In this document: positions 43,063-59,602 of the stretch, one piece after another
Position numbering within the stretch: position 1 is the first letter of the stretch
Layout: each line of letters starts with the position of its first letter
NCBI RefSeq assembly: GCF_016793225.1
Contig: NZ_JAEUMN010000162.1
Location: 1 to 64,000, forward strand
Length of the DNA: 64,000 nt
Direction: 5' to 3'
From: Phenylobacterium sp.
GTDB lineage: Bacteria > Pseudomonadota > Alphaproteobacteria > Caulobacterales > Caulobacteraceae
Made by a program: the position numbers and the translations under genes
Notes under the pieces: model-generated
The model's database searches: none
The model's input: only the letters and a program-made list of their open reading frames with translations
Told to the model about the DNA's origin: nothing

Positions 43063-44019
43063 ATGACCAGCTTGGCGATGGACAGGGACGGGCAGGCGGC
43101 GCAAGCCAGCGCCTGGCTCGTGCGCCTTTCCGCCGGCGACGGCGGAGAGTCCGAGGCGCTGGCGTTCGACGCCTGGCTGGACGAGACGCCCGGCAACCGC
43201 GAGGCCTACGCCGCCGCGCTGGCGACCTGGCACGAGTATTCCGCAGGCGCGGACGCGGTGGGCGTGGAGATCGCCCGGCCGGCGCGCCGGCCCGTTTCGC
43301 TGTCCCGCCGGTGGATGGCGGGCGCCGGCGGCCTCGCCATCGCGGCGACGGTGGCCCTGGCGGTCCTGCCGGCTCTCACGACCACGACAGCGACCTATGC
43401 GACCACCAAGGGCGAGCACCGGCAGGTGGCCCTGGCGGACGGCTCGAAGATCGACCTGAACGCCGAGACGCGCCTCTCGGTGAAGTACGGCCTGCTCCGG
43501 CGCGAGGTCACCCTGACCGACGGCGAAGCGCTCTTCGACGTGGCGCACGACACGCGCCGGCCGTTCACGGTGGCGGCCGCGGGGCGGATGGTCCGGGTGC
43601 TGGGGACCCAGTTCGATGTCCGCAGCCGCTCGGGCGACGTCGTCGTGACAGTGGCCCGCGGACGGGTCGAGGTGCGGCCCAACGCCACGTCCACCCAGGC
43701 GTTCACGCTCGTGCGGGGCCAGCGGCTCGAGGTCGAACGCACCGGCCGGGCGCAGCTGCACACGGTCGACCCGCAGGAAGCCTACAGCTGGCGCGCCGGC
43801 CGCCTGGTGTACCGCAACCAGCCGCTCGCCGAGGTGGTGGCCGACCTGAACCGGCAGTTCGTCCAGCAGGTCGAGATCGGCGATCCGGCCCTGGCGCAGA
43901 CTCCGATCACCGGCGTGATCGTCCTCGACGATCCGCAGTCCGTGGTGGCGCGTCTGAGCTTGATGCTCCCCATAAGATCGGTACCTTCCGACCGGGGGCT
44001 GCTTCTGCTTCGGAAGTAA
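43063..44019 (+). CDS. FecR family anti-sigma / signal transducer
   Basis: 318-residue inner-membrane protein that holds the FecI-like sigma factor and relays the receptor signal. The N-terminal cytoplasmic DUF4880 domain has WLVRLSAGDGGESEALAFDAWLDETPGNREAYA, one helix follows (~95-115), then the periplasmic FecR domain (KGEHRQVALADGSKIDLNAETRLSV ... VLGTQFDVR). A C-terminal STN-like segment follows. ATG 43063 is chosen over 43039 for its GAGGCGGG. Confidence 0.92.
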   Translation: MTSLAMDRDGQAAQASAWLVRLSAGDGGESEALAFDAWLDETPGNREAYAAALATWHEYSAGADAVGVEIARPARRPVSLSRRWMAGAGGLAIAATVALAVLPALTTTTATYATTKGEHRQVALADGSKIDLNAETRLSVKYGLLRREVTLTDGEALFDVAHDTRRPFTVAAAGRMVRVLGTQFDVRSRSGDVVVTVARGRVEVRPNATSTQAFTLVRGQRLEVERTGRAQLHTVDPQEAYSWRAGRLVYRNQPLAEVVADLNRQFVQQVEIGDPALAQTPITGVIVLDDPQSVVARLSLMLPIRSVPSDRGLLLLRK

Positions 44020-44051
44020 GGCCGAAGGACAAGTCGGAGCTAACCATCCGC

Positions 44052-46433
44052 GTGCGTCGGGACCTGGTGGCCGCCACCACGTGCGTCGTGTTGGCGATGA
44101 GCGGCGGCGACCCCGCCCAGGCCGCAGGCGCGCGGGTCCAGTTCAAGGTCGCGCCCAAGTCCTACTCCGAAGCGCTGCTGGACATGGCCCAGCAGGCGAA
44201 CGTCACCCTGATCGGCGCGGGCGCCTGCATCGGACAGTCGCCGGGCGTGTCCGGGGTGCTGACGATCGAACAGGCGCTCGATCAGCTCCTGGCGGGGGCG
44301 CCCTGCACGGCGCGGCTGGTGGCCGCCGGCACTGTGGAGGTGGCGCCGATCCTGCGGCCCGAGGCCCCGCGCCCCTCACCGCCCGTGACCGTCTCGGAAC
44401 TGCTCGTGACCGCGACGAAGCGGGTGCGCGACCCCCGGCAGATCGCCGTGGCGGTGACGGCGATCCCGCGCGGGCAGCTGCTGTCCACCGGCGCCACCGA
44501 CGCCGGCGAAGCGGCCGGACAGCTCGCGGGCGTCCTCGCCACCAACCTCGGCCCGGGCCGCAACAAGCTGCTGCTGCGCGGGCTCTCGGACGGGGCCTAC
44601 ACGGGTCGCGCCCGCTCGATCGTGGCGACGTTCCTCGACGACATACCGGTCAACTACAACGCCCCCGATCCCGACCTGCGGCTGACGGATGTCGAGCGCG
44701 TGGAGGTCGCAAGGGGCCCCCAGGGCGCGCTCTACGGCGCCGGGTCGCTCTCGGGCCTCTACCGGATCGTCGCGCGCAAGCCCGACCTCGAAGCCTTCCA
44801 CGCCGAGCTGCGCGGGACCGCGGCGATCACCGAGAGCGGGGATCCGAGCTACGCCGTCGAGGGCTACGCCAACTACCCGCTGACGCTGTTCGGCCAGACC
44901 ATCGGCCTGCGCCTCGCCGCCTACCAGGAGGAACAGGGCGGCTACCTCGAGAACGTGCGGCTGATGCGCAGCAACGTCGACCGCACCGTGCGGCGGGGCG
45001 CGCGGCTCATCATGCTCTACGAGCCGACGGACGACCTGACGTTCACCGTCACGTTGGCGGGCCAGCACCTGCGTTCGGACGACACCCACTACACGACGCC
45101 CGGCATGAAGCTGACGCGGGACACGCGTTCGCCCGAGCCGCACGTCAACGACATCGAGCTCGCCACCGCCACGGTGCGGCGCTCGTGGGGGTGGGGCGAA
45201 CTGACCTCGGCGACGGGCGTGGTCCGTCACCGCTACGGCAGCCTGTTCGACTCGACGGCCAGCAAGGACCTCTACACACGCTTCGCCGAGACCGCGGCCT
45301 ATGCCGAGCGCACGCGCACCACCATGCTGGTGGAGGATCTGGTGCTCACCTCGCGCGGCGCCGGCCGCCTCGAGTGGCTCGCGGGCGTCTACGGCTCGTA
45401 CACGCGCGTGCATACGCCCACCGAGTTCCTGGCGCAGCTCTCGTTCTCGCCGGTGCTGATCCCGGTCTACGGCGACGACCGGCGCGATCGGATCCGCGAG
45501 CTGGCCGCCTATGGCGAGGTTTCCTACGAGGTGCTGCCCGGCTGGACCGTTGCGGTCGGCGCGCGCGCCTTCCAGATCGAGACCCGGACCCGCTCGTCGG
45601 TGGTGTCCGAACGCTTCCAGCCCCGCAGTTTTGACCGCGAGGTCAAGTTCAGCGGCGTCTCGCCCAAGCTCTCGCTCCAGAAGACCTTCGGCGGGGGAAA
45701 CCTGGCCTATGTGGTGATGTCCGAAGGCTACCGGTCCGGCGGCATAAACTCGGGCGGCGCCGTGCCTCTGCTGCCCGAACGCGAGGTCTTCGGCCCGGAC
45801 CGGCTCACCAACTTCGAGGCCGGCCTGAAGCTCGAGGCGTTCCGCCGGCGTCTGGGCGTGAACACGGCCCTCTTCTACGACCTTTGGGACGACATCCAGA
45901 CGGACCAGTTCCGGGACTCGGGAATTCCCTTCACCACCAATGCGGGCGACGCCCAGGTCATCGGCGTCGAGACCGAGGTCACCTGGCGCACCGACTTCGG
46001 TCTCACGGCGCAGCTGAACGCCCGGATCAGCCGCACCCGGACGGGCCGGCCGAACCCCGCCTTCATCCGCACGCCCCTCGCCGACGGCCTGCCGGGGGCG
46101 CCCCCCATCTCCGCTGGGGCCGTGCTCAGCTACGACACCGCGATCGGCGACGACTGGACGCTGCGGCTGATCGGCCAGGCCAGCTACGTCGGCCGCTCCC
46201 GGGTCAGCTTCGAGGCGGCGCAGCCGCGCACCCGCGAGTACGGCCGCGCGAAGCTGTCTGCGGAACTGACCAACGGCGCCTGGGGCGCGCAGCTCTTCGT
46301 GATCAATCCGCTGAACGACTACAGCGACACCTTCGCCTTCGGGAACCCGTTCACACAGAACCAGGCCAAGATCCGTCAGGTGACGCCGCAGCGGCCGCGG
46401 ACCATCGGCATCACCGTGTCGCGCGGGCTGTAG
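44052..46433 (+). CDS. TonB-dependent receptor with N-terminal signalling (STN) domain
   Basis: 793-residue outer-membrane receptor. A signal peptide (~1-26) is followed by a secretin/TonB N-terminal signalling domain (~30-97; VQFKVAPKSYSEALLDMAQQANVTLIGA). The plug then has a VTVSELLVTATKR TonB-box-like start and the ERVEVARGPQGALYGAGSLSG motif, and a 22-strand barrel ends in an aromatic-poor TVSRGL. The STN domain contacts FecR, so ligand binding should switch on the sigma factor two genes upstream. GTG 44052 is chosen with GGAG upstream. The ligand is unknown: ferric siderophore, haem or a glycan are all possible. Confidence 0.93.
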   Translation: MRRDLVAATTCVVLAMSGGDPAQAAGARVQFKVAPKSYSEALLDMAQQANVTLIGAGACIGQSPGVSGVLTIEQALDQLLAGAPCTARLVAAGTVEVAPILRPEAPRPSPPVTVSELLVTATKRVRDPRQIAVAVTAIPRGQLLSTGATDAGEAAGQLAGVLATNLGPGRNKLLLRGLSDGAYTGRARSIVATFLDDIPVNYNAPDPDLRLTDVERVEVARGPQGALYGAGSLSGLYRIVARKPDLEAFHAELRGTAAITESGDPSYAVEGYANYPLTLFGQTIGLRLAAYQEEQGGYLENVRLMRSNVDRTVRRGARLIMLYEPTDDLTFTVTLAGQHLRSDDTHYTTPGMKLTRDTRSPEPHVNDIELATATVRRSWGWGELTSATGVVRHRYGSLFDSTASKDLYTRFAETAAYAERTRTTMLVEDLVLTSRGAGRLEWLAGVYGSYTRVHTPTEFLAQLSFSPVLIPVYGDDRRDRIRELAAYGEVSYEVLPGWTVAVGARAFQIETRTRSSVVSERFQPRSFDREVKFSGVSPKLSLQKTFGGGNLAYVVMSEGYRSGGINSGGAVPLLPEREVFGPDRLTNFEAGLKLEAFRRRLGVNTALFYDLWDDIQTDQFRDSGIPFTTNAGDAQVIGVETEVTWRTDFGLTAQLNARISRTRTGRPNPAFIRTPLADGLPGAPPISAGAVLSYDTAIGDDWTLRLIGQASYVGRSRVSFEAAQPRTREYGRAKLSAELTNGAWGAQLFVINPLNDYSDTFAFGNPFTQNQAKIRQVTPQRPRTIGITVSRGL

Positions 46434-46866: not shown

Positions 46867-47775
46867 CTACGGCGGCGGCCAGGCGCGCGCCAGGAAGGCG
46901 GCGATGCGGGCGACCGCCTCGTCCGCCTCGGGCAGGGCGCCGCCGAACATCTGCCAGACGTGGATCATGTCGGGCCAGACCTCGAGCTCGACCGAGACGC
47001 CCGCGGCCTCGGCGCGCTGCGCCAGGGTGACGGCGTCGTCGAGCAGGACCTCGTCCGACCCGGCCTGGACGAGGAGCCGCGGCAGGCCCGAAAGGTCGGC
47101 GGCCAGGGGCGAGGCCAGCGGGGCGGCCGGATCCTGGCCCTGGAGGTACTGGTCGGCCATCTCCAGCAGGATACGGCGCGTGAGCAGCGGATCGGCGCCG
47201 GCCCGGGTCTCGTACGAGCCGCCGGTGCAGGCGAGGTCGACCCACGGGCTCAGCGCGACCGCGGCGGCCGGCGCGGGCAGGCCGGCGTCCCGGATGGCGA
47301 TCAGCGCCGCGATGGCCAGCCCGCCGCCGGCCGACTCCCCGCCGATGGCGATGCGCGCGGGCTCCGCTCCGTCCGCCAGCAGCGCGCGATACGCCGCCAC
47401 CGCGTCCTCCACGGCGGCCGGGAACGGGTGGTCGGGCGCGAGGCGGTAGTCCAGGCTCACCACACGGGCGGCGGTGGCGAGGGCGAGCGCGGTGGTCAGG
47501 CCGCGGCTGCCGGCCGGGTCGCCCATCACGTAGCCGCCGCCGTGCAGGTGCAGGAAGACGTTCGGACCGCCGCCCGGCTCCCGTTCGAGGGTCTCGACCG
47601 GCCGTCCGGCCAGCGCGCCGGCGGCGACCCGTAGCCCCGGCGGCGGCGGCGGCTGCCCGGCGGCGAAGACCGCCGCCTGCGCGCGGCGGTGTGCGATGGA
47701 GGCGTCGGGGCCGCCCAGCAGCGACAGGAGCATCGCGCGCACGCCATCGATGGGGCGCTCGGGGCGCGCGCTCAT
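46867..47775 (-). CDS. Alpha/beta hydrolase, HSL-type carboxylesterase
   Basis: 302-residue esterase of the hormone-sensitive-lipase group. The oxyanion motif is HLHGGGYVMG, the nucleophile lies in GGESAGGGLA, Asp in the DEVLLDD region, and His in MIHVWQMF. It overlaps the Baeyer-Villiger monooxygenase gene by four bases (ATGA), and an ester or lactone made by that enzyme would be its natural substrate. It has no signal peptide. Confidence 0.93.
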   Translation of the reverse strand: MSARPERPIDGVRAMLLSLLGGPDASIAHRRAQAAVFAAGQPPPPPGLRVAAGALAGRPVETLEREPGGGPNVFLHLHGGGYVMGDPAGSRGLTTALALATAARVVSLDYRLAPDHPFPAAVEDAVAAYRALLADGAEPARIAIGGESAGGGLAIAALIAIRDAGLPAPAAAVALSPWVDLACTGGSYETRAGADPLLTRRILLEMADQYLQGQDPAAPLASPLAADLSGLPRLLVQAGSDEVLLDDAVTLAQRAEAAGVSVELEVWPDMIHVWQMFGGALPEADEAVARIAAFLARAWPPP

Positions 47776-49388
47776 CCGTTCGGCCCTGCGCCCAGCCGGA
47801 AGCCCTCGTACCCGCGCTGCGCCACCTCCAGGCAGCGCTCGCGGTAGGCCGCGAACCCGCCCACGTACACGCCGAAGCGGCGCGGCTTTCCGGGGATGTT
47901 GGCGCCGAAGTACCAGGACCCGTCCGCCTTCGGGTACAGCGTATGGGCGACCGCGGCGTCGGATTCGGCCACCCAGGCCGCCTCGGCGGTCTCGGTGGCC
48001 TCGACGGTGGCGACGCCGCGCGTGCGCATGTGCTCCAGGCAGTCGGCGATCCAGTCCACATGCTGCTCGACGGCCGTCGGCATGTTCGCCAGGACCGACG
48101 GGCTGAGGGGGCCCGTGACGGTGAACAGGTTGGGGAAGCCCGCGATGCCGAGGCCGAGGTAGCTCTTCGGCCCTTCGGCCCATCGGTCGGCCAGCCGGAC
48201 GCCGCCGCGGCCCCTCACGTCGATGGCGAGCAGGGCCCCGGTGATGGCGTCGAAGCCCGTGGCGACGACCAGGTCGTCCAGGTCGTACGCCGCGTCCGCC
48301 GTGCGCAGGACGTGGCCCGCAACCTCGCGGATCGGCGCGCTGCGCACGTCGACCAGCGTCACGTTGGGACGGTTGAAGGTCTCGTAGTAGTCGTCGTCCA
48401 GCGGCGGGCGTTTCACGCCGATCGGATGGTCGTTGGGGATCAGCCGCTGCGCGGTCGCCGGGTCGCGCACCGTGCGCAGGATGTGGGCGCGCACGAAGTC
48501 CTGCGCCGTGCGGTTGGCGCGCTCGTCGCTGAAGAGGTCGGTGAAGGCGCTGAAGAACCGCATGCCGCCCTGGTCCCAGAAGGCCTGGTAGGCCGCTTCC
48601 CGCGCCGCGTCGCTGACCTCCAGCGCCGACTGCTCCGGCGGGTCGAACGGCACCGCCCCGCCCGAGGCCAGGCAGCGGGCGCGGATCTCGGCGTAGTTGG
48701 CCTTCACCCAGGCGTCGAAGTCCGGGTCGGTCGGGCGGTTCCAGGCCGGCAGCACCCAGTTGGCCGTGCGCTGGAACACCGTCAGATGCTCGGCCTGCTC
48801 GGCGATGCGCGGGATCGCCTGCACCGCAGAGGCGCCGGTGCCGATCACGCCGACGCGGCGGCCTCGGAAGTCGACGGGGTCATGCGGCCACTGGGCGGTG
48901 TGGAACAGCCGCCCCTGGAAGTCGCGAAGGCCCGGGATGTCCGGCCAGTTCACCTGCGACAGGCAGCCCATCGCCGTCACCAGGGACCGCGTGGTCGTCT
49001 CGAACCCGTCCGTCGTGCGCAGCCGCCAACCGCCCAGGGACTCGTCGAAATGCGCCGCCGCCACCCTGGCGCCGAAGCGATAGCGCCGGCGCAGATCGAA
49101 GCGGTCGGCGACGTGCTTCAGGTAGCTGAGGATCTCGGGCTGCTCGGAGTAGCGCAGGCTCCAGTTCCAGTCCTGCTGCAGGCCGTCGTCGAAGGCGTAG
49201 CTGTAGTAGTAGCTCTCGCAGTCGCACCGCGCGCCCGGATAGCGGTTCCAGTACCAGACGCCCCCGACGTCGTCGGCCTGTTCCAGGCCCAGGACGTCGA
49301 GGCCCTGCTCGCCGAAGCGATGGACGGCGTAGAGCCCCCCGAAGCCCGCGCCGATGACGACCACGTCGTACTGCGGTTCCGCGCCCAT
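47772..49388 (-). CDS. Baeyer-Villiger monooxygenase (flavin-containing, type I)
   Basis: 538-residue FAD- and NADPH-dependent enzyme that inserts oxygen next to a ketone to give an ester or lactone. The FAD site is G13-A-G-F-G-G18, and the BVMO fingerprint FxGxxxHxxxW is exact (F157, G159, H163, W167; FQGRLFHTAQW). The NADPH site is GVIGTGASAVQ. ATG 49388 follows GAGGG; an in-frame ATG at 49412 lies inside the operator-like site and is unlikely. It heads the BVMO-esterase operon, with an AACRNNCGTTAT site 23 bp before the start. Confidence 0.94.
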   Translation of the reverse strand: MGAEPQYDVVVIGAGFGGLYAVHRFGEQGLDVLGLEQADDVGGVWYWNRYPGARCDCESYYYSYAFDDGLQQDWNWSLRYSEQPEILSYLKHVADRFDLRRRYRFGARVAAAHFDESLGGWRLRTTDGFETTTRSLVTAMGCLSQVNWPDIPGLRDFQGRLFHTAQWPHDPVDFRGRRVGVIGTGASAVQAIPRIAEQAEHLTVFQRTANWVLPAWNRPTDPDFDAWVKANYAEIRARCLASGGAVPFDPPEQSALEVSDAAREAAYQAFWDQGGMRFFSAFTDLFSDERANRTAQDFVRAHILRTVRDPATAQRLIPNDHPIGVKRPPLDDDYYETFNRPNVTLVDVRSAPIREVAGHVLRTADAAYDLDDLVVATGFDAITGALLAIDVRGRGGVRLADRWAEGPKSYLGLGIAGFPNLFTVTGPLSPSVLANMPTAVEQHVDWIADCLEHMRTRGVATVEATETAEAAWVAESDAAVAHTLYPKADGSWYFGANIPGKPRRFGVYVGGFAAYRERCLEVAQRGYEGFRLGAGPNG

Positions 49389-49410: not shown

Positions 49411-49422
49411 ATAACGGACGTT
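49411..49422 (-). promoter_or_regulatory. Operator-like site A before the BVMO operon
   Basis: On the minus strand it reads AACGTCCGTTAT, immediately followed by GCTATC so that TATGCT could be the -10. AACG/CGTT arms flank two bases. It is also framed by GATAGC (49405) and GCTATC (49431). It is one of four sites of the same pattern in the island, and the only one in the BVMO/SDR divergent region. Confidence 0.55.
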
Positions 49423-49499
49423 ACGCAGACGCTATCGGCTTCTTCGGGCCTGTGTAAAGGTGCGGGCCGACACGAGGGGGTCGGAGCGGGAGGATGTCC

Positions 49500-50297
49500 G
49501 TGGGGCGGATGGCAGGCAAGGTGGCGCTGGTGACCGGCGCGGCGGGCGGCATCGGCCGGGCCTGCGCGCTGCTCCTGGCCCGCGAGGGCGCCCGGGTCTT
49601 CGCCGGGGATGTGGACATGGAGGGGCTCGCGGGCACCGCCGCGCTGGCCCGGGACGGCGACGCCGTCGAGACCGTGCGGCTGGACGTCACCTCCGAGGAC
49701 GATTGGGCCGAGGTCGTGGGCCGGATCAGCGCCGCCGCGGGGGCGCTGCACGTGCTGGTCAACAACGCGGGCCTCTGCATCAGCGCCCAGCTGCTCGAGA
49801 CGACGAACGATGTCTGGCGCCGGCAGATGTCGGTGAACCTGGACGGGGTGTTCTTCGGCACGCGGGCGGCCATGCCGCTCCTGGCGCGGGCCGGCGGCGC
49901 GGCGGTCGTCAACGTCTCGTCCGTGGCCGGCCTGGACGGCCTGCCGGGGCTCTCGGCCTACTGCGCCACCAAGGGGGGCGTGCGGCTGTTCACCAAGGCC
50001 GTGGCGCTCGAATGCGCGCAGGCGCGCAACGGCGTGCGGGTGAACTCGGTCCACCCCGGGGCCATCGAGACGCCGATCTGGGTGAAGATGCAGAACGACG
50101 GTCGGCTGGACCCCGGCTCGAATTCGGCCGAGGCGCTGATGGACGCCACACGCCAGGCGGCCGCGGAGGCCACGCCGCTCGGCTTCGCCGGTCTGCCCGA
50201 GGACATCGCCGAGGGCGTGCTCTACCTGTGCTCGGACGCCGCCCGTTTCGTCACGGGCGCCGAACTGGTGATCGACGGCGGCGTACACGCGGGCTGA
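49500..50297 (+). CDS. Short-chain dehydrogenase/reductase
   Basis: 265-residue NAD(P)-dependent oxidoreductase. TGAAGGIGRA is the cofactor motif, NNAGLC the NAG motif, and YCATKGG the active-site Y-x-x-x-K. In the island it could oxidise an alcohol to the ketone that the divergent Baeyer-Villiger enzyme uses, as in cyclohexanol and steroid pathways. GTG 49500, six bases after GGGAGG, is preferred over ATG 49494, which touches it. Confidence 0.92.
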   Translation: MGRMAGKVALVTGAAGGIGRACALLLAREGARVFAGDVDMEGLAGTAALARDGDAVETVRLDVTSEDDWAEVVGRISAAAGALHVLVNNAGLCISAQLLETTNDVWRRQMSVNLDGVFFGTRAAMPLLARAGGAAVVNVSSVAGLDGLPGLSAYCATKGGVRLFTKAVALECAQARNGVRVNSVHPGAIETPIWVKMQNDGRLDPGSNSAEALMDATRQAAAEATPLGFAGLPEDIAEGVLYLCSDAARFVTGAELVIDGGVHAG

Positions 50298-50345
50298 CGG
50301 CGCGGCGACCGTATTCGGCGCGGCGGCGCTGTGCTAACGCGCCAG

Positions 50346-50362
50346 TCGCGCAGGTTGCGCGA
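50346..50362. promoter_or_regulatory. Palindrome upstream of the island tetR gene
   Basis: TCGCGCA-GGT-TGCGCGA has perfect seven-base arms and ends 14 bp before the tetR start codon. It does not resemble the AACRNNCGTTAT sites. A TetR protein often binds its own promoter, so this is either its autoregulatory site or the site of a different regulator. Confidence 0.45.
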
Positions 50363-50376
50363 AGCGTGAGGACGTC

Positions 50377-51009
50377 ATGGCCCGGCAGGCTGACCACGAG
50401 CAGAGGAGGCGCCAGTTCGCCGCGGCGGCCCTGGCGGTGATCTCGCGCGACGGCCTGGAAGGCCTGACCATGCGCAACGTGGCCAAGGAGGCCGGCTTCA
50501 CGACCGGCGCGCTGACCCACTACTTCCAGTCCAAGGACGAGGTGCTGATCGCGGTGTCCGAACACGGCGCCGAGATCGTGCGGCCGATGATGGACGAGGC
50601 GGCCACCGGCGTGTCAGCGCGCGAAGCGCTTCGCGACCTGCTGCACACGATCCTGCCCGCCTCGGCCGCCATGAAGGCCCAGTGGCGGTTCTGGGTCGCG
50701 TTCTGGGAGCGCGGCGCCCACAGCCCCCAGGTGCAGCGCGTGATGCGCGAGCGGTACTTCGAGTACATGAACCGCGTGGCCAGCGTGATCCGCCGGGCCC
50801 AGGAGCAGGGCGAGGCGCCCCGCGACCTGGACGTCGACCAGGTGGCGCGGGAGATCGTGGCGACGATCGACGGGCTTGCGGTCCAGGTGCTGCTCGGCGC
50901 GGCGAAGTTCACCGGCGCGGCCCAGCGCCAGTTCGTGGACACGATGCTCGACGCGCGGCTCGGCGCCGTCGCGGCCTCGCCGCCGAAGGCGTCCCGCGCC
51001 GCCGGCTGA
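50377..51009 (+). CDS. TetR family transcriptional regulator of the island
   Basis: 210-residue regulator with helix-turn-helix LTMRNVAKEAGFTTGALTHYFQSKDEVL (~30-57) and a helical ligand-binding domain. It lies between the SDR and the VOC-TonB-amidohydrolase unit, so it is the natural candidate to control the island through the AACRNNCGTTAT sites at 49411, 51064, 51099 and 55210. Its own promoter has a different palindrome, so this link needs proof. GTGAGGACGTC precedes the ATG. Confidence 0.92.
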   Translation: MARQADHEQRRRQFAAAALAVISRDGLEGLTMRNVAKEAGFTTGALTHYFQSKDEVLIAVSEHGAEIVRPMMDEAATGVSAREALRDLLHTILPASAAMKAQWRFWVAFWERGAHSPQVQRVMRERYFEYMNRVASVIRRAQEQGEAPRDLDVDQVAREIVATIDGLAVQVLLGAAKFTGAAQRQFVDTMLDARLGAVAASPPKASRAAG

Positions 51010-51058
51010 GCGACGCCTGACGACCGGTCGGTCGGACGCGCCTCCGGCTTCATGCCAT

Positions 51059-51112
51059 TGCAGAACAAGCGTTATACGATCGCTTGCCCATTTTGCAGAA
51101 CGAGCGTTATGC
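51059..51112 (+). promoter_or_regulatory. Tandem operator-like sites B1 and B2
   Basis: A 19-bp block (51059-51077) is repeated at 51094-51112 with only two changes, 35 bp apart (start to start). Each has the core AACRAGCGTTAT (51064-51075 and 51099-51110) and runs into a -10-like sequence (TATACGAT; TATGCT). They precede the VOC gene by ~78 bp and are the strongest sign of shared control in the island. Confidence 0.6.
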
Positions 51113-51187
51113 TCGGCTCCAGAAGACGAGCGCCGGGGCGATCGCGCAGAGCGTGAGGCCGCCGCGCCACATGGGGAGTGTGCGGTC

Positions 51188-51709
51188 ATGTCCGACGCGG
51201 AATGGGCGCTGTCGCGCCTCTATCACACCGTCATCAACTGCCGCGATCTGGACGAGTCCGTCGCGTTCTACCGAAAGCTCGGCTTCGAGGTCCTCAACGA
51301 CCGCCGCAACGTCGACTGGCCCGACTTCGTGGCCGGGATCTTCGGCCTGTCGAAGGCGAAGGGGCGGGGCGTCCTGATGGTCCTGCCCTCGGACCCGGAC
51401 GGTCCCATGATGGACCTCATCGAATGGATGGAGCCCAAGGCCGCCTTCCCGGATCCTGCGGCGCGCAAGACCCAGGTGCCGCGGATCATCGCCTTCAGGA
51501 CCCAGAACGTGCATGCCGCCTACGAGGCGCTCAGCAAGTCGGGCGTGGTGTTCACCCAGGCCCCGCACGTGCCGGACGCGGCGCTCGGGATCGTGGGCAC
51601 GGCCTGCTGCTACGATCCGAACGGCAACATCATCGAGATGATCGAACTCCAGCCGGGCGTCCGGCACTCACGAGCCAACGAGGCGCTGGGCAACAAGGCG
51701 TCGAACTGA
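51188..51709 (+). CDS. VOC (glyoxalase/bleomycin resistance) family protein
   Basis: 173-residue protein of the vicinal oxygen chelate superfamily, with two beta-alpha-beta-beta-beta modules: LYHTVINCRDLDESVAFYRKLGFEVL and RIIAFRTQNVHAAYEALSKSGVVF ... YDPNGNIIEMIEL. The N-terminal His and C-terminal Glu are metal-ligand-like. Roles in the family include dioxygenase, isomerase and lyase; none can be chosen. It is the first gene of the unit that continues with the TonB receptor 57 bp downstream. Confidence 0.87.
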   Translation: MSDAEWALSRLYHTVINCRDLDESVAFYRKLGFEVLNDRRNVDWPDFVAGIFGLSKAKGRGVLMVLPSDPDGPMMDLIEWMEPKAAFPDPAARKTQVPRIIAFRTQNVHAAYEALSKSGVVFTQAPHVPDAALGIVGTACCYDPNGNIIEMIELQPGVRHSRANEALGNKASN

Positions 51710-51766
51710 ACTTCGGCCCGCGCGGGGCCGCAGATGACCAACGATAAATCGGGGAGGGATCGGCAG

Positions 51767-54058
51767 ATGGCCAGGATGTTCGGGCGCCAGGCGCGCCTTC
51801 TGGGCAGCGTGGCGGCGCTTGCGCTCGCGGGTGGAGCGGCGCAGGCCGCGGACCAGGCGGAAACCGCGATCAGCGAAGTGGTGGTCACGGCGCAGTTCCG
51901 CGAGGAGAACGTCCAGAAGGTCCCGATCCCGATCACCGCCGTAGGCGGCGAGGACCTCGAGAAGCAGGGGGTCGTCGGCTTCAAGGAACTGGGCATGCGG
52001 GTGCCGTCGCTGCGCTTCGGCGCGGGCGTCACGGGCGGTGAGAACGTGATCACCATGCGGGGCCTGGGCAGCCAGAACACCACCCCCGGCGGCGACTCGC
52101 CCGTCGCGTACAACATCGACGGCGTCTACGTGCAGCGCACCACCTCGATCGATCCCGAATTCTACGACATCGCCCGGGTCGAGGTGCTGCGGGGGCCCCA
52201 GGGCACCCTCTACGGCCGCAACTCGGTGGGCGGCTCGATCAATGTGATCACCAACAAGCCCACCGGCCAGTTCGGCGCCGGCTTCGACGCCATGGTCGGG
52301 AACTACGACGCACGCACCTTCCGCGGCTTCTTGAACGTGCCGCTGGTGACCGAGGGCGACATGCAGATCGCCGCGCGCCTGACGGCGGTGTCGGCCGAGC
52401 ACGATCCCTACACCAAGAACCTCTCGGCCAAGCCGACCGCCACGAACGAGCTGGACCGGCTCGACTACCAGATGATCCGGGCCCAGATCGCCATCGACTT
52501 CACCCCGCAGGCGCGCCTCCTTCTCGCGGCGCATCGCACGTGGGGCGAAGGCGTGGCCGCCACCGCGACGGCCTGGTGGCAGACGCCGGCGCGCTACACG
52601 CGGCCGCCGCTCGGGATTCCCGCCGGATCGGCGTGCGACTTCAGCACCGCGGCCAGGTTCGATCCCCGCCGGGTCTGCCACGACTACCCCGACGTCGGCA
52701 GCAACGACACCGAGCTCTACTCCGGCACGTTCGACGTCGAGCTTCCGTTTGCGAACCTGACGACCGTGACGGCCTACGGGACCAGCCACGTCGACCAGAT
52801 CAGCGACGGCGACGGCTCGGACCTCCCGATCTCGGTCGGCGAGGCGTGGCGCCTGGATGCGAAGCAGTTCTCCCAGGAGGTCCGCTTCGCGTCCAACCAG
52901 GAAAGCGCCCTGACCTGGGTGGTCGGCGGCATCTACTTCTACGGCAAGAACTTCCAGGACTTCGTCTACCGCGACCTGGGCTTCAACGACTTCGGCCCGA
53001 CCGCGCCCTTCAACCGCTTCAACTTTCTGAGCGAGGGCACGAGCAAGACGCGCTCCTGGGCCGCGTTCGGGCAGTTCGACTATGACTTCGGCAAGAACGG
53101 CGGGCCGCCGGTGATCCTGACCGCGGGTCTGCGCTACACCCACGACAAGAAGTCCGGCTTCAACCAGCTCGACTACCAGCTGCCGATCGCCTGCGGCGGC
53201 AGCTGCGGGGTCTTCTCGGGCCCCTTCAGCAAGACGTGGAACCGCATCACCGGCAAGGTCGGCCTGAGCTACCAGGCCAGCGAGGACACCATGTTCTTCG
53301 TCTCGGTGGCGCGCGGCTATCTGGCCGGCGGCAACATCACCGGCCTGGGCAACATCTACGATCCGGAGACGCTGACGTCGTTCGACGCGGGCGTGAAGTC
53401 CCGCTTCCTCGACGACCGGGTGCAGCTGAACATCGCCGCCTACCATCAGCGCATCAAGAATCTGCAGGTGTTCATCCAGAGCGCCACGCAGTCGGGCATC
53501 AACAACGTCGACGGCGCCACCAACGTGAACGGCGTCGAGGCCGAGCTCACGGCCGTGCCCGTGGACAACCTGCGGCTCAACGCGACCGTCACGCTGACCG
53601 ACGCGGAGTACGGCCGCTACATCACCCGCGCCGCCCGCTTCGGCGGACCGGGGCCGGGGTGCGATGCGGTGACCCTGCTCTGCAACTTCAAGGGCAACAA
53701 CCTCAACCAGACGCCGGACTACACGGTGAACCTGGGCGCGGAGTACCGGTTCGAGACGGAGATGGGCGCGATCACGCCGCGGATCGACGTCTATTTCTCG
53801 GGTCGGGTGGACTTCCTGGCGGACAACTTCATCACCTCGCGCCAGAAGGCCTACCACACCACCAATGCGCGGGTGACCTGGGAAAGCCCCGACAACCGCT
53901 ACCGGGTCGAGGCGTTCGTCGCCAACATCGAGGACGACGACATCATCTCGAACGACGGCCTGCAGTCGATCTCGCTGGGCCAGCAGGCCCTGCAGCCCGA
54001 CAACTTCGTCTACTATCCGCCCCGGACCTACGGGATCCGGATCGGCGCGAGCTTCTAG
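51767..54058 (+). CDS. TonB-dependent receptor of the catabolic island
   Basis: 763-residue outer-membrane receptor. A signal peptide (~1-27) leads to the TonB-box-like ISEVVVTAQ, a plug domain with DIARVEVLRGPQGTLYGRNSVGGSINV, and a large beta barrel that ends in the aromatic YGIRIGASF. It has no STN signalling domain. ATG 51767 follows GGGGAGGGA; an upstream ATG at 51734 lacks one. Its position between a VOC protein and an amidohydrolase suggests that it imports the substrate of this pathway, not iron. Confidence 0.94.
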   Translation: MARMFGRQARLLGSVAALALAGGAAQAADQAETAISEVVVTAQFREENVQKVPIPITAVGGEDLEKQGVVGFKELGMRVPSLRFGAGVTGGENVITMRGLGSQNTTPGGDSPVAYNIDGVYVQRTTSIDPEFYDIARVEVLRGPQGTLYGRNSVGGSINVITNKPTGQFGAGFDAMVGNYDARTFRGFLNVPLVTEGDMQIAARLTAVSAEHDPYTKNLSAKPTATNELDRLDYQMIRAQIAIDFTPQARLLLAAHRTWGEGVAATATAWWQTPARYTRPPLGIPAGSACDFSTAARFDPRRVCHDYPDVGSNDTELYSGTFDVELPFANLTTVTAYGTSHVDQISDGDGSDLPISVGEAWRLDAKQFSQEVRFASNQESALTWVVGGIYFYGKNFQDFVYRDLGFNDFGPTAPFNRFNFLSEGTSKTRSWAAFGQFDYDFGKNGGPPVILTAGLRYTHDKKSGFNQLDYQLPIACGGSCGVFSGPFSKTWNRITGKVGLSYQASEDTMFFVSVARGYLAGGNITGLGNIYDPETLTSFDAGVKSRFLDDRVQLNIAAYHQRIKNLQVFIQSATQSGINNVDGATNVNGVEAELTAVPVDNLRLNATVTLTDAEYGRYITRAARFGGPGPGCDAVTLLCNFKGNNLNQTPDYTVNLGAEYRFETEMGAITPRIDVYFSGRVDFLADNFITSRQKAYHTTNARVTWESPDNRYRVEAFVANIEDDDIISNDGLQSISLGQQALQPDNFVYYPPRTYGIRIGASF

Positions 54059-54099
54059 GAGAGGGGGTCGGGCCCCTCGGGTCCGGCCCCGCGACGCCC

Positions 54100-55143
54100 A
54101 TGTCGATGGAGTGGCCCGTACGCGCCGACTGGCTGGCCCAGGTGCGAGAAGCGCCCCTGGAGCCCGGGCTGCCGATCATCGACGCGCATCATCATCTCTG
54201 GAAGCTGCCGCACGACACCTATCTGCTCGACGAGTTCCTGGACGACGCAGACCCGCAGCGCGGCGGTCACAACGTGGTCGCCAGCGTCTTCGCCGAGTGC
54301 GCGGCCATGTACCGGCCGGACGGCCCTGCGCATCTTCGGTCGATCGGAGAGGTCGAGTTCGCCAACGGGGTGGGCGCGCAGGCCGCCAGCGGCGCCTTCG
54401 GCCCGGTCCTGGCCTGCGCCGCGATGTTCGGCTCGGCCGACCTCATGCTGGGCGAGCGCGTGGGCGAGGTGCTGGACATCCATCTGGCGCGGGCGCCCGA
54501 GCGCTACCGCGGGATCCGGCCTATCGTGTGCGCCGATCCCCATGGCGTGCTGGATCCGTGGCCCAGTTCGCCCTCGGACATGATGGAGAGCGCCGCGTTC
54601 CGGGCGGGCGCGCGGGAGCTGCAGCGGCGCAACCTCTCGCTCGACATCTGGGTGTTTCACCACCAGCTGGACCAGGTGGCCGGCCTCGCGGCCGCCCTGC
54701 CGGGGCTGACCGTGATCCTGGATCACATCGGCACCCCGCTCGGCATGGGCTGGTACGCCGGGCGGCGCGAGGAGGTGTGGGCGCGATGGCGCGCGGGGAT
54801 GGCCGCCGTGGCGGCCTGTCCGAACGTCCTGCTGAAGCTGGGCGGCCTGAACATGCACTTCAACGGCTTCGACTGGCACACGCGGCCGAAGCCGCCGTCC
54901 TCCGACGAGCTCGCCGCCGCCAACGGGCCCTACTATGCGGCCGCCATCGAGCTTTTCGGGCCGGACCGCTGCATGTTCGAGAGCAACTTCCCGATGGACA
55001 AGCGGGCGTGCAGCTACGGGGTCCTGTGGAACGCGCACAAGAAGATGGCCGCCGGCTTCAGCGCCGACGAGAAGCGCCTGATGTTCCACGATGTCGCGGC
55101 GCGCGCCTACCGGATCGAAGGTCTCCCGGAGCCGGCGACATGA
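54100..55143 (+). CDS. Amidohydrolase family 2 (lactonase-like) protein
   Basis: 347-residue TIM-barrel metal hydrolase. The first metal motif is IIDAHHHLW (H30, H32), a later His is in ILDHIGTP, and the terminal Asp is in FESNFPMDK, the pattern of the amidohydrolase_2 group. That group includes sugar lactonases and 2-pyrone-dicarboxylate lactonase. With a Baeyer-Villiger enzyme nearby, lactone opening is the likely role. ATG 54100 begins the frame 41 bp after the receptor stop, in the same unit. Confidence 0.9.
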   Translation: MSMEWPVRADWLAQVREAPLEPGLPIIDAHHHLWKLPHDTYLLDEFLDDADPQRGGHNVVASVFAECAAMYRPDGPAHLRSIGEVEFANGVGAQAASGAFGPVLACAAMFGSADLMLGERVGEVLDIHLARAPERYRGIRPIVCADPHGVLDPWPSSPSDMMESAAFRAGARELQRRNLSLDIWVFHHQLDQVAGLAAALPGLTVILDHIGTPLGMGWYAGRREEVWARWRAGMAAVAACPNVLLKLGGLNMHFNGFDWHTRPKPPSSDELAAANGPYYAAAIELFGPDRCMFESNFPMDKRACSYGVLWNAHKKMAAGFSADEKRLMFHDVAARAYRIEGLPEPAT

Positions 55144-55209
55144 CCTGACCACGCGGCATCACCTGACCGCGCCGGCGCGATTGACTCGGCTCGGAATGCC
55201 CGATTACGT

Positions 55210-55226
55210 AACGGTCGTTATATAAT
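55210..55226 (+). promoter_or_regulatory. Operator-like site C with exact TATAAT box
   Basis: AACGGTCGTTAT (55210-55221) runs directly into TATAAT (55221-55226). The operator thus fills the spacer and touches the -10 of the flavin monooxygenase gene. This placement fits a repressor. The -10 covers the upstream ATG at 55225, arguing for the GTG start at 55246. Confidence 0.6.
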
Positions 55227-55245: not shown

Positions 55246-56436
55246 GTGAAGTTCGACATCTTCTGTGAGATCCAGCGGGCCTTCCCCTGGGAGGGCGGGC
55301 AGAACGAGGCCAGCCTGTTCCAGGAGATCCTGGAGCAGGCGCGCGCGGCGGACGCGGCGGGCTTCACCACCTGGTGGCAGGTCGAGCACCACGGCGCCCC
55401 CGAGTTCAGCTACTCGGCTGCTCCCGAGGTCGTCCTGACGGCGATCGCCATGTCGACGCGGCGGCTGCGGGTCGGGCACGCGGGCGTCCTTGCCCCCTTC
55501 GCCATCAACTCGCCGCTGCGCGTCGCCGAGCGCGGCGCCACGCTGGACGTGCTGTCGGGCGGACGCTTCGACATGGGCCTCGCCAAGTCGGGCGGGAAGG
55601 AGTGGGAGACGTTCGGCGTCGATCCGGAAAAGGCGCGCGACCAGACGCGCGACGCCATGCACATCCTGCCCCGCATCTGGACCGAGCCCGAGTTCTCGTG
55701 GGACGGGCCGGACTACAAGGTCCCGCCGCGCGAGATCGTGCCGAAGCCGGTGCAGTCGCCGCACCCGCCGCTGTGGCAGACCTGCGGGTCGCCGGAGAGC
55801 TTCTACATGGCCGGCGAAATGGGCGTCGGCGCGCTGGGCACCACGCTGCTGAGCCCCGTGAAGTTCCTGGGCGAGATGCTGCGCGAGCACGACCGCGGGC
55901 TGGCGGCGTGCAAGACCCCGGCCGGGAAGTTCGTCAACGGCGAGAAGGGCTGCTTCACCTTCGTCCACATCGCCGAGACGCGGGCGCAGGCCATCGCCAA
56001 CGGCGCCGCCTGGTCGGCCCTCTGGTACGTCAACGCCGCGCCGCGGGTGTTCAAGGTGCCGCGCCGGGTCTGGTACGACGTGATCAAGGCGGGTCTCCAC
56101 CCGAACTCCGCGCGCGACACCGCCGCCCTCGCCAAGCTCGATCCGAACGAGACGGTGATCCACGACGACGACCCGCCGGTGGTGGTGCTGCTCAAGCGGA
56201 TGGCCCAGGGCGAGGACATCAGCCACGAGGAGGCGCACGAGGTGCTGGAGCCCCTCGACTGCGTGGTCATCGGCGATCCCGACCACTGCGCCGAGAAGCT
56301 GAAGGGCTACGAGGCCATCGGGGCGGACCGGATGATGTGCATGATGCAGTACGGCTCGATCCCGCACGCGGCGGTGCTGAAGAGCATCGAGCTGGCCGGC
56401 CGCCTGCTGTTGCCCGCCTTCGCCCGCGCAGCCTGA
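55246..56436 (+). CDS. LLM class flavin-dependent monooxygenase
   Basis: 396-residue luciferase-like TIM-barrel enzyme using reduced FMN and oxygen. It has the FDIFCEIQ start, TTWWQVEHHG with catalytic-loop His, LRVGHAGVLAPFAINSPLRVAERGATLDVLSGGRFDMGL, and a C-terminal GDPDHCAEKL segment. Family members oxidise ketones, terpenes or alkanes. GTG 55246 is chosen because GGAAGGA lies 8 bases upstream and the earlier ATG is inside the promoter. It carries operator-like site C. Confidence 0.92.
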   Translation: MKFDIFCEIQRAFPWEGGQNEASLFQEILEQARAADAAGFTTWWQVEHHGAPEFSYSAAPEVVLTAIAMSTRRLRVGHAGVLAPFAINSPLRVAERGATLDVLSGGRFDMGLAKSGGKEWETFGVDPEKARDQTRDAMHILPRIWTEPEFSWDGPDYKVPPREIVPKPVQSPHPPLWQTCGSPESFYMAGEMGVGALGTTLLSPVKFLGEMLREHDRGLAACKTPAGKFVNGEKGCFTFVHIAETRAQAIANGAAWSALWYVNAAPRVFKVPRRVWYDVIKAGLHPNSARDTAALAKLDPNETVIHDDDPPVVVLLKRMAQGEDISHEEAHEVLEPLDCVVIGDPDHCAEKLKGYEAIGADRMMCMMQYGSIPHAAVLKSIELAGRLLLPAFARAA

Positions 56437-56451: not shown

Positions 56452-58092
56452 TCAGTTGGCGCCTTCGAGCAGGCGGCGGGCGATGACCTGCGCCTGGATC
56501 TCGCCGGCGCCCTCGAAGATGTTCAGGATCCGGGCGTCGGCCAGCACGCGGCTCACCTGGCTCTCGAGCGCGAAGCCGTTGCCGCCGTGGATCTGCACGG
56601 CGTTGTCGGCCGCCGCCCAGGCGACCCGCGCGGCGACCAGCTTGGCCATGCCGGCCTCGAGGTCGCAGCGCCGGCCGGCGTCCTTCGACCGCGCCGCGAA
56701 CCACGTCAGCTGGCGCGCGCCCAGGAGCTCGGCGGCCATCATCGCCAGCTTGTTGGCCACGCGGGGGAATTCGGCGATCGGCTGGCCGAACTGCTTGCGC
56801 GTCAGGGCGTAGTCGAGGGCCAGGTCGAGGGCGTTCTGGCCGACCCCGATGGCGCGCGCCGCGGTCTGGATCCGGGCGCTCTCGAAGGTCGCCATGAGCT
56901 GGGCGAAGCCCTGGCCCTCCTGGCCGCCCAGGAGGTTCTCGTGCGGCACCTCGAAACCGTCGAAGCCGATCTCGTACTCCTTCATCCCGCGGTAGCCGAT
57001 GACCCCGATCTCGCCGCCGCTCATCCCGGGGGCCGGGAACGGGTTGCCGGGTTCGCCCCGCGGCTTCTCGGCGAGCAGCATCGACAGGCCGCGGTGGTCC
57101 TTCTTGCTCGCGTCGGTGCGCACGAGGAGCGTCATCAGGTCGGCGCGCGCGGCGTGGGTGATCCAGGTCTTGGCGCCGTAGATCCGCCAGCCCTTGTCCC
57201 ACCGCAGGCCGCGGGTCTTGAGGCTGCCCAGGTCGGACCCCGTGTCCGGCTCGGTGAAGACCGCCGTGGGGATGATGGCGCCCGAGACGACCCCCGGCAG
57301 GAAGCGCGCCTTCTGCTCCTCGGTCCCGTGCGCCAGGAGCAGTTCGGTGGCGATCTCCGACCGGGTCGCCAGCGAGCCGGCGCCGATCCAGCCCCGGGAG
57401 AGGGATTCGGTGACGACGCACATGGCCACCTTGTCGAGCCCGGAACCGCCCCAGGCCTCGGGCGCGGTCAGGCCGAACACCCCGAGGTCGCCCAGTTCCT
57501 GCAGCAGCTCCAGCGGGATCAGCTCGTCCTTCAGGTGCCACTGGTGGGCGAAGGGCGCGATCTTCTCCTGGGCGAAGGCGTGGAACTGGTCGCGCACCAA
57601 GAGCAGCGTCTCGTCCAGGCCGCCGTCCTCCAGGGCGGGACGCCCCCGCGCCTCGGCCAGAAGCTGTACGATGCGGCTCTTGGCGGCCTGCGAAACGCCG
57701 GGCCGAAGCCGCCCCAGGATATGTGTCAGGCGCTCGGCGGGGGCGAACACGTCCGCGGGGCGAAAGGTCTCGCCCTGGCTCATCGGGATGCCGCCCACGA
57801 GCTGGCTCAGATACTCGTGCGCGAGAAGCTGCGCGGGCAGCGCCTCGGCCTCGGTCATCCGCGGGCCCAGGTCGCGCGCCCAGGCCGCCACCTGCCGCAG
57901 GGTCTCGGCGTAGGACGCCGCCCACGCCAGCCCGTGCGCCACGTGCTGTTCGGCGTCCAGCAGCTGCCGGTCCAGGCGGTCGTCCCTGCGGACGCGGCTC
58001 GAGACGGCGGCGCCCACGGCGGACACCAGCGCGGCCGCCTCGTCGGAAGCCTGTTCCAGAAGTTCGGGAAGATTCGGCAGCGCTGGGCTCAT
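56452..58092 (-). CDS. mcd: Acyl-CoA dehydrogenase, methylsuccinyl-CoA dehydrogenase type
   Basis: 546-residue FAD enzyme with an N-terminal extension of ~150 residues before the acyl-CoA dehydrogenase domain. The extension (AHGLAWAASYAETLRQ ... LVGGIPMSQGE) and core blocks (HWHLKDELIPLELLQELGDLGVFGL, FTEPDTGSDLGSL, GGNGFALESQVSRVL) match (2S)-methylsuccinyl-CoA dehydrogenase of the ethylmalonyl-CoA pathway. The other pathway genes are not in the window. It is convergent with the flavin monooxygenase, so probably not part of the island. A general acyl-CoA dehydrogenase is the alternative. Confidence 0.8.
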   Translation of the reverse strand: MSPALPNLPELLEQASDEAAALVSAVGAAVSSRVRRDDRLDRQLLDAEQHVAHGLAWAASYAETLRQVAAWARDLGPRMTEAEALPAQLLAHEYLSQLVGGIPMSQGETFRPADVFAPAERLTHILGRLRPGVSQAAKSRIVQLLAEARGRPALEDGGLDETLLLVRDQFHAFAQEKIAPFAHQWHLKDELIPLELLQELGDLGVFGLTAPEAWGGSGLDKVAMCVVTESLSRGWIGAGSLATRSEIATELLLAHGTEEQKARFLPGVVSGAIIPTAVFTEPDTGSDLGSLKTRGLRWDKGWRIYGAKTWITHAARADLMTLLVRTDASKKDHRGLSMLLAEKPRGEPGNPFPAPGMSGGEIGVIGYRGMKEYEIGFDGFEVPHENLLGGQEGQGFAQLMATFESARIQTAARAIGVGQNALDLALDYALTRKQFGQPIAEFPRVANKLAMMAAELLGARQLTWFAARSKDAGRRCDLEAGMAKLVAARVAWAAADNAVQIHGGNGFALESQVSRVLADARILNIFEGAGEIQAQVIARRLLEGAN

Positions 58093-58177
58093 GAGTCCAA
58101 TATGACAGGCTTGCGGTGCATCGGGCGAGGCGGCCCTGCTGTACCCGGTTCGTCAAGCTCTACAAGGGAGACGCCGC

Positions 58178-58804
58178 ATGCTGATCGTCCATCACCTCAA
58201 CGACAGCCGCTCGCAACGCATCCTCTGGCTCCTGGAGGAACTGGGCGTTCCGTACGAGATCAAGCGCTACGAGCGCGACGCCACGACCCGGCTGGCGCCG
58301 GCGGCGCTGACGGCGGTCCACCCGCTGGGCAAGAGCCCCGTGATCAGCGACGGCGACAGGGTCGTCCACGAGTCCGGCGCCATCATCGACTACATCATCC
58401 GCCGCCACGGCGGGGGCCGCCTGGCGCCGCCCGTCGGCAGCGACGCCTACGAGACCTACAACCAGTGGCTCCACTACGCCGAAGGCTCGGCGATGCTGCC
58501 GCTGATGCTCAGCATGTACGTCGCGCGCCTCGGCGAGGCCGGCGCGCCCTTGCATCCACGCATCGAAAGCGAGCTGGACAACCACCTGGGCTATGTCGAG
58601 CAGAGCCTCGCCGGCCGCGAGTGGCTGCTGGACCAGGGGCTGACCGGCGCCGACATCAACATGTCGTTCGTGGGCGAAGTGGCCGGCGTGTTCGGCCGCT
58701 TCCCCAAGTACCCCGCCATCCAGGCCTGGGTGGAGCGCTTCCAGGCGCGCCCGGCCTACAAGGCGGCGCTGGAGAAGGGCGGGGCCTACAGCTTCGCGCG
58801 GTGA
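58178..58804 (+). CDS. Glutathione S-transferase family protein
   Basis: 208-residue GST with a thioredoxin-like N-terminal domain (LNDSRSQRILWLLEELGVPYEIKRYER, GKSPVI, ESGAIIDYI) and a helical C-terminal domain with the N-capping ADINMSF. A Ser/Asn-type catalytic residue near the N-terminus (NDSRSQ) suggests a beta/theta-like bacterial class. The substrate is unknown. It is convergent with the next hydrolase (the stop codons nearly touch). Confidence 0.9.
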   Translation: MLIVHHLNDSRSQRILWLLEELGVPYEIKRYERDATTRLAPAALTAVHPLGKSPVISDGDRVVHESGAIIDYIIRRHGGGRLAPPVGSDAYETYNQWLHYAEGSAMLPLMLSMYVARLGEAGAPLHPRIESELDNHLGYVEQSLAGREWLLDQGLTGADINMSFVGEVAGVFGRFPKYPAIQAWVERFQARPAYKAALEKGGAYSFAR

Positions 58805-59602
58805 CTACTCGAACGGCGGGAACTCGTCCTCGAGCAACCCGTCCAGGAAGTCGAGCACCGTCGCCTTGAACGCGGCGTGCGGGATCGCCGAGAAGTGGTC
58901 GCAGCCCGGCAGGGTGACGGCCTTGCCATAGGGGAACACCCGCGCCAGCGCCTCCGGGTCGCCGGCCAGGTCGTCGCCGACGCCGGCGACGACCAGCACC
59001 GGCATGTCCAGGCGGCCCAGGGTCTCGCGCGTCAGGGGCGGGCTCTGGGCCTGGGAGAAGGCGGCCAGCGCCTGGCGGTCCTCGCCCTGCTCGTCGGCGA
59101 ACTGGCGGAAGCTGCGCAGGAACTCGGTCTTGATCGTGGACGGGTCCTCGGCGGTCATGGCGGAGACGATCGTCTCGCCGTTCTCGGGCGCCCGCGGCGG
59201 ATCGAACAGCTTCCCGCCCACGCCGCCCAGCATCAGGTTGTTCACGCGGTCGGGATGGTCCAGGGCCATCTGCATCGCCGTGCGCGTCCCCATCGAGTAG
59301 CCCAGCACCTCGGGCTGGCGGACGCCCAGGTGATCCAGCAGGGCGATGGCGTCGCGGGCCAAGGTCTCGCGGCCGTAGGCGGCCGGATCGTGGCTCTTCT
59401 CGCTTTCGCCGTGGCCGCGCTGGTCCATCGCGATCACGCGGAATCCGCGTCGGCCCAGCGCCGCGTACCAGCCGGTCCGCTTCCAGCCCTCGTTCCGGTT
59501 CGAGGCGAAGCCGTGCAGCAGCAGGATCGTGCGCTCGGCCGGGCCGGGCGGGGCGATGTCGTCGTAGGCGATCTGGACGCCGTTCAGGGTCGCGGTGGGC
59601 AT
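58805..59602 (-). CDS. Alpha/beta-fold hydrolase
   Basis: 265-residue hydrolase with oxyanion region LLLHGFASNRNEGW, nucleophile elbow GYSMGTRTAMQ, acid in the VVAGVGDDLAG region and His in GCDHFSAIPH. It has no signal peptide, so it is cytoplasmic. The family includes esterases, C-C hydrolases and haloperoxidase-like enzymes; no substrate is evident. It sits 16 bp upstream-to-end of the VanY-like gene on the same strand. Confidence 0.9.
   Translation of the reverse strand: MPTATLNGVQIAYDDIAPPGPAERTILLLHGFASNRNEGWKRTGWYAALGRRGFRVIAMDQRGHGESEKSHDPAAYGRETLARDAIALLDHLGVRQPEVLGYSMGTRTAMQMALDHPDRVNNLMLGGVGGKLFDPPRAPENGETIVSAMTAEDPSTIKTEFLRSFRQFADEQGEDRQALAAFSQAQSPPLTRETLGRLDMPVLVVAGVGDDLAGDPEALARVFPYGKAVTLPGCDHFSAIPHAAFKATVLDFLDGLLEDEFPPFE

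Follow-up and report, generated by a model that had tools for sequence, protein, structure and literature searches.

The analyzed stretch of DNA (the window, 64,000 nucleotides) carries an island in which two monooxygenase genes, a short-chain dehydrogenase gene, and hydrolase genes are found together with those of a TonB-dependent outer membrane receptor and a TetR-family protein (Table 1). The nearest solved relatives of the Baeyer-Villiger monooxygenase (BVMO) are the steroid monooxygenase 4ap3 and the phenylacetone monooxygenase 1w4x; for the luciferase-like monooxygenase (LLM) and the amidohydrolase, only remote solved relatives were found. Genes of an acyl-CoA dehydrogenase, a glutathione transferase, and a hydrolase follow the LLM gene (56452-59602), and a second TonB-receptor-like ORF was recognized by eye at approximately 43900-46433. 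A link to a catabolic plasmid of a named pathway was considered and rejected, since a search of 72,556 plasmid records (E 1e-60) gave no match of the LLM protein.

Table 1. Genes, candidate operators, and probable promoter elements of the island. Scores refer to the distant-trained matrix described in the text.
Feature	Position	Strand	Basis and remarks
Alpha/beta hydrolase, hormone-sensitive lipase-type esterase	46867..47775	-	PF07859 2.7e-58; overlaps the BVMO gene by 4 bp
Baeyer-Villiger monooxygenase (BVMO)	47772..49388	-	nearest solved 4ap3 (1e-180), 1w4x
Candidate operator ATAACGGACGTTAC	49411..49424	.	between the divergent BVMO and SDR genes; score 18.1, window rank 3
Short-chain dehydrogenase (SDR)	49494..50297	+	PF13561 1e-57; upstream of tetR, same direction
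TetR-family repressor, probable binder of the sites	50377..51009	+	PF00440, PF13977, TetR fold
Candidate operator AGAACAAGCGTTAT	51062..51075	.	upstream of two at the VOC promoter; score 18.2
Probable -35 of the VOC promoter, TTGCCC	51084..51089	+	18 bp ahead of TATGCT (51108-51113)
Candidate operator AGAACGAGCGTTAT	51097..51110	.	downstream of two at the VOC promoter, overlaps TATGCT; score 16.4
VOC (glyoxalase/dioxygenase superfamily) protein	51188..51709	+	PF00903 4.7e-13
TonB-dependent outer membrane receptor	51734..54058	+	PF00593 2.8e-39, PF07715 8.3e-18
Amidohydrolase-2 family hydrolase	54100..55143	+	PF04909 7.4e-32
Probable -35 of the LLM promoter, TTGACT	55181..55186	+	conserved; 21 nt upstream of the operator
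Candidate operator GTAACGGTCGTTAT of the LLM promoter	55208..55221	.	score 19.6, window best
Luciferase-like (LLM) flavin monooxygenase	55246..56436	+	PF00296 4.5e-49; probable GTG start

An exact search of both strands found the motif AACRNNCGTTAT four times in the window, at 49411-49422 on the minus strand and at 51064-51075, 51099-51110, and 55210-55221 on the plus strand. These are the coordinates and strands given in a preliminary description of this DNA, and there was no fifth match. The description had put the expectation by chance at well under one match; from base composition, 0.028 matches would be expected for the window, 2.0 for the genome, and 0.0025 for the 5.8 kb spanned by the sites, and none was found in 100 dinucleotide shuffles of the window. 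A genome-wide search, suggested in the description as a check, returned only the same four matches in the own assembly (4,599,220 bp in 197 contigs, 97.5% complete), all of them in the island, with 0 for the reversed-pattern control. The form TAACNNNNGTTA occurred at two places in this genome, both inside the island. When one mismatch was allowed, the search yielded 21 strand matches, distributed over 18 places of which four are in the island, versus 12 control matches, and therefore no members of the group outside the island are claimed here. The bare 12-mer was rejected as a genome-wide marker: it was matched in 71 of 100 relatives, and in 51 same-genus genomes without the TetR it gave 40 matches versus 81 for the reversed control. 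Matches outside the island in related genomes, which the description had named as grounds for giving up its reading, thus do occur for the bare 12-mer, but at chance level.

As judged from the comparison of loci, the putative operator is the 14-bp palindrome ATAACRNNYGTTAT, because a dyad search that made no use of the motif ranked TAAC-N4-GTTA top. In this search, the 150 bp ahead of LLM were examined for every pair of 4-mers separated by a gap of 0-8 in the 41 loci with the LLM start present, out of 42 named loci encoding LLM relatives. TAAC-N4-GTTA with its shifted forms came first, being found in 33 of the 41 loci, where random windows taken as a control gave 0.8-0.9 on average. By the same comparison, the bare 12-mer covers the core and one of the halves of this longer palindrome. 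The palindrome is imperfect at the window sites, where CGTTAT forms the better half; this explains why an oriented motif had been noticed at first. A scoring matrix was then built from 16 sites of 15 of the 23 far loci (LLM less than 72% identical). With this distant-trained matrix, the four sites topped all 64,000 positions of the window (scores in Table 1), the next position reaching 8.3. No site of comparable score was found in the whole window for the genes that follow LLM, nor for the second TonB-receptor-like ORF.

Conservation was assessed at a cut-off score of 14 in the near loci, whose LLM is 72% identical or more and which had no part in the training. A site was present upstream of LLM in 18/18, of BVMO in 7/7, and of SDR in 8/8 cases, as well as upstream of VOC in 9/12, TonB in 4/7, and TetR in 8/16; a shared intergenic region may count for two genes, and the loci are not all independent, L102 and L136 coming from the same genome. 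In the far loci, the site preceded LLM in 17 of 23 (15 of these 17 had supplied the training sites), TonB in 10/12, TetR in 12/20, VOC in 5/8, SDR in 1/3, and BVMO in 1/1. In the six cases where a far locus had no site at LLM (L122, L123, L124, L127, L128, and L129), one preceded VOC, TonB, or TetR. The coding background, 212,673 bp of the same genes from the window and the loci, contained 0 sites. Hence, phylogenetic footprinting, likewise proposed in the preliminary description, found the sites kept at the orthologous promoters. Where TetR and TonB genes are divergent, the site lay between them in ten loci (L108, L111, L112, L114, L117, L118, L119, L124, L125, and L128) and not in L140, the best score in that interval being just 9.2.

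The sites had been described as merging with -10-like sequences, and the strings TATGCT, TATACGAT, TATGCT, and TATAAT are literally present at the four sites; the last one is doubtful. TATAAT at 55220 sits 33 bp from the -35 TTGACT of the LLM promoter, which is too far, so it is probably not the -10 of this promoter; we infer that the true -10 probably lies across the operator's upstream border. Of 36 operator-bearing LLM promoters, 10, all of the Phenylobacterium type, have TTGAC at a distance of 21-22 nt ahead of the operator. The LLM reading frame probably starts with GTG at 55246 and not with ATG at 55225, as suggested by the preceding GGAAGGA and by the LLM relatives, which start at the same residue; the ATG overlaps the TA-rich edge of the operator. 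At the VOC promoter, the tandem operators were spaced by 35-36 bp in 10/10 loci (the window, where the spacing is 35 bp, plus nine; score cut-off 5). TT[GT][AC]-N20-TATG was kept there in 9/10 loci, and therefore the second VOC operator overlaps the -10. In six Phenylobacterium-type relatives and in L113, both BVMO and SDR have an operator of their own close by in the interval between them; in the window, the BVMO-side operator is kept and the SDR-side one is missing. According to the preliminary description, the sites precede only three transcription units. Sites do stand at the BVMO, VOC, and LLM units, but the one at 49411 also borders a fourth, SDR-TetR.

The protein encoded between SDR and VOC matched PF00440 (6.9e-14; 51.8 bits versus the cut-off of 24) and PF13977 (7.4e-26), with the HTH at the N-terminus as in TetR proteins. 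Its predicted structure is the nine-helix, all-alpha standard TetR fold (pLDDT 91.4), which gave TM-scores of up to 0.82 (by query length) with solved TetR proteins. A palindromic operator at nearby promoters, a further mark of the family, is indicated by sequence and conservation. Around the recognition helix, residues T42, G44, A45, L46, and Y49 were invariant in 22 aligned members. The TetR was found in 36 of the 42 loci, which differ in gene order. In the six loci without it (L109, L110, L115, L120, L121, and L132), a contig end is close to the cluster; L120 extends for 10 kb on the other side, and TetR is absent there. The linkage of the site and TetR was also seen in other Alpha- and Gammaproteobacteria.

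Within the genus (101 genomes), the TetR was called at an identity of at least 45% in 16 genomes, and all 16 contained TAACRNNYGTTAT at most 6 kb from the TetR gene on the same contig; TAACRNNYGTTAT occurred anywhere in only 14 of the 85 genomes without it (Fisher P 9e-11, a value that ignores shared ancestry). One further off-island place each was noted in four of the 16 TetR-bearing genomes (G101, G050, G039, and G140). Among the 14 site-bearing genomes without the TetR, G121 and G122 have short contigs with the LLM promoter, a remote, profile-matching TetR of G056 starts 25 bp past the site's first base, G035 has a weakly matching TetR, and G016 has a 27%-identical TonB gene near the site; no match to an island protein was found near the site in the other nine.

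A search with a TetR profile at 1e-25, in which up to eight candidates per genome were scored, identified matching proteins in at least 25 of 385 class genomes and at least 5 of 398 phylum genomes, the own one included. Among 32 distant TetR loci, L155, L171, and L172 have the perfect ATAAC-N4-GTTAT dyad at most 200 bp upstream of their own tetR; most of the distant TetRs lack the exact dyad, and some show variants. Those without R33 of helix 2 (L154, L169, L179, and L180) have ATAAT-N4-ATTA-like dyads near the start, yet a similar dyad accompanies the R33-containing protein of L181, which is a counter-example. This comparison, made post hoc, gives a hint that residue 33 is linked to operator base 5 and that R33 might be a specificity residue.

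Conservation of the sites and their co-occurrence with TetR across the loci and the genus make the local TetR very probably the repressor of this system. We consider it highly likely that the four sites are its operators, from which it would be released by an inducer so that the units are switched together. The proposal of the preliminary description, one regulon with this TetR as the likely repressor, is thus strengthened by island confinement, footprinting, and linkage. Without the inducer, the TetR dimer would sit on the promoters and block RNA polymerase at the BVMO-esterase, VOC-TonB-amidohydrolase, and LLM units, and probably at the divergent SDR-TetR unit, which probably belongs to the regulon. 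It would occupy both operators of the VOC promoter, the second of which lies on the -10, as well as the LLM operator, which follows the -35 and precedes the start codon. A substrate or an intermediate of the pathway would then free TetR and turn the units on together. Autoregulation of SDR-TetR may operate via the 49411 site, which lies between BVMO and SDR-TetR; it is uncertain, since there is no site directly before the window's own tetR (best score -9.4) and the SDR-side operator is missing.

An alternative in which TetR binds the same sites as an activator or a dual regulator is unlikely. The operator positions do vary among the promoters, and a protein bound at the upstream VOC operator, approximately 33 bp ahead of the probable -10, could help the polymerase. 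The overlap of the second VOC operator with the probable -10, the placement of the LLM operator downstream of the -35 but ahead of the start codon, and the fact that TetR proteins are mostly repressors speak against such a role. It is quite improbable that the sites serve another regulator encoded elsewhere while the local TetR controls something else, even though no operator stands immediately before tetR in the window. Across 36 loci of varied gene order the site goes together with this TetR, as it does in 16/16 genus genomes; the divergent TetR/TonB arrangements hold it between both genes (in ten loci, L140 excepted), and the dyad recurs at the start of a few distant TetRs that match the profile. 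The notion of a lineage-specific promoter element, a form of the -10 region, draws on the location of all sites near probable promoters, where they run into TA-rich, -10-like strings; it is largely refuted and very improbable in view of four exact matches in 4.6 Mb, the two-sided palindrome, and the restriction to these clusters. Chance clustering of a short pattern, compatible with the roughly two matches expected per genome of such size and composition and with the genus genomes without TetR, where matches did not exceed the reversed control, is negligible given that all four fall where 0.0025 are expected and are kept at orthologous promoters.

Besides the local repressor, known TetR systems were considered. 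PaaR (TTHA0973) of Thermus thermophilus is a TetR-family repressor of phenylacetate genes with the published sites CNAACGNNCGTTNG and AACnAACGTTnGTT (PMC6651687, PMC9493321), and it provides the nearest published operator core found. Both are TetR-family proteins with a catabolic regulon, and the PaaR core AACGNNCGTT is also present in three of the four window sites, the one at 51064 having AACAAGCGTT instead. The likeness described here is one of the operator core; the flanks are C/G in Thermus versus AT-rich here, and no paa protein was named, among the matches listed, for the eight scanned island proteins. The TetR shares the C-terminal domain PF13977 with BetI, but its score with the BetI equivalog TIGR03384 was 81.7 versus the cut-off of 201.3 bits, and a scan of eight island proteins with family profiles revealed no choline genes. 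KstR and KstR2 are TetR repressors of mycobacterial steroid catabolism, with lipid-like substrates. A KstR2 structure, 4w1u, was among the fold matches (rank 20), and the score with the KstR family NF033703 was 34.3 versus the cut-off of 280 bits. The best sequence and fold matches (28-31% identity) were 2gfn and 2nx4, Rhodococcus TetR proteins of unassigned function deposited as structural-genomics entries, for which we know of no regulon.

Alcohol dehydrogenase, BVMO, and esterase together make up ketone routes, in which, as a possible general scheme, an SDR gives the ketone, a BVMO the ester, and an esterase its cleavage. SDR, BVMO, and esterase genes lie side by side in the island, and such a ketone route is plausible on general grounds; the island differs in adding LLM, VOC, amidohydrolase, and the TonB receptor. 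A hydrophobic, ketone-like compound might enter through the TonB receptor, be oxidized by SDR, BVMO, and LLM, and be hydrolyzed by the esterase and the amidohydrolase. In L124 and L139, the two variant loci scanned, LLM has a PF04199 cyclase-family protein as its neighbor, and no amidohydrolase match was seen in either. Of three hydrolase stretches scanned, the one in L111 (8980-9960, minus strand) gave no family match; the strand read was probably the wrong one.

A literature search, with many subscription papers outside its scope, found no description of this regulon, and comparison of the loci supports the view that the TetR-family regulator has a local regulon, apparently an undescribed one. 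On balance, we lean slightly toward an old, portable module in which a single clade of repressors, its recognition helix and its 14-bp palindrome both conserved, would have kept hold of an uncharacterized pathway in Alpha- and Gammaproteobacteria; this pathway would consist of LLM, VOC, the TonB receptor, and a hydrolase, either the amidohydrolase or the PF04199 cyclase, and BVMO, SDR, and esterase would have joined the same operator in some lineages. The regulatory mechanism itself is ordinary. What is gained is an operator, a repressor, and a gene set named for an apparently unstudied catabolic pathway: the operator may mark the pathway genes in other bacteria, and the inducer, and thence the substrate, can be sought through a simple promoter-release assay.

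Several observations were made alongside. L102 and L136 belong to one MAG (GL140_2_metabat_78_sub) with two paralogous LLM clusters, both with operators and each with its own TetR. The contigs of L134 and L114 are titled Klebsiella pneumoniae and Myxococcota, respectively, and their clusters look like Pseudomonadales and Phenylobacterium ones; these would be either mislabelled or misbinned MAG contigs or cases of transfer. A palindromic site was also noticed off-island in a regulon-bearing genome (L052, 9572-9585; G050 contig 27, 43571-43584), where it is flanked, as judged by eye, by an ORF resembling homoserine kinase and a Fic/Doc-like ORF.
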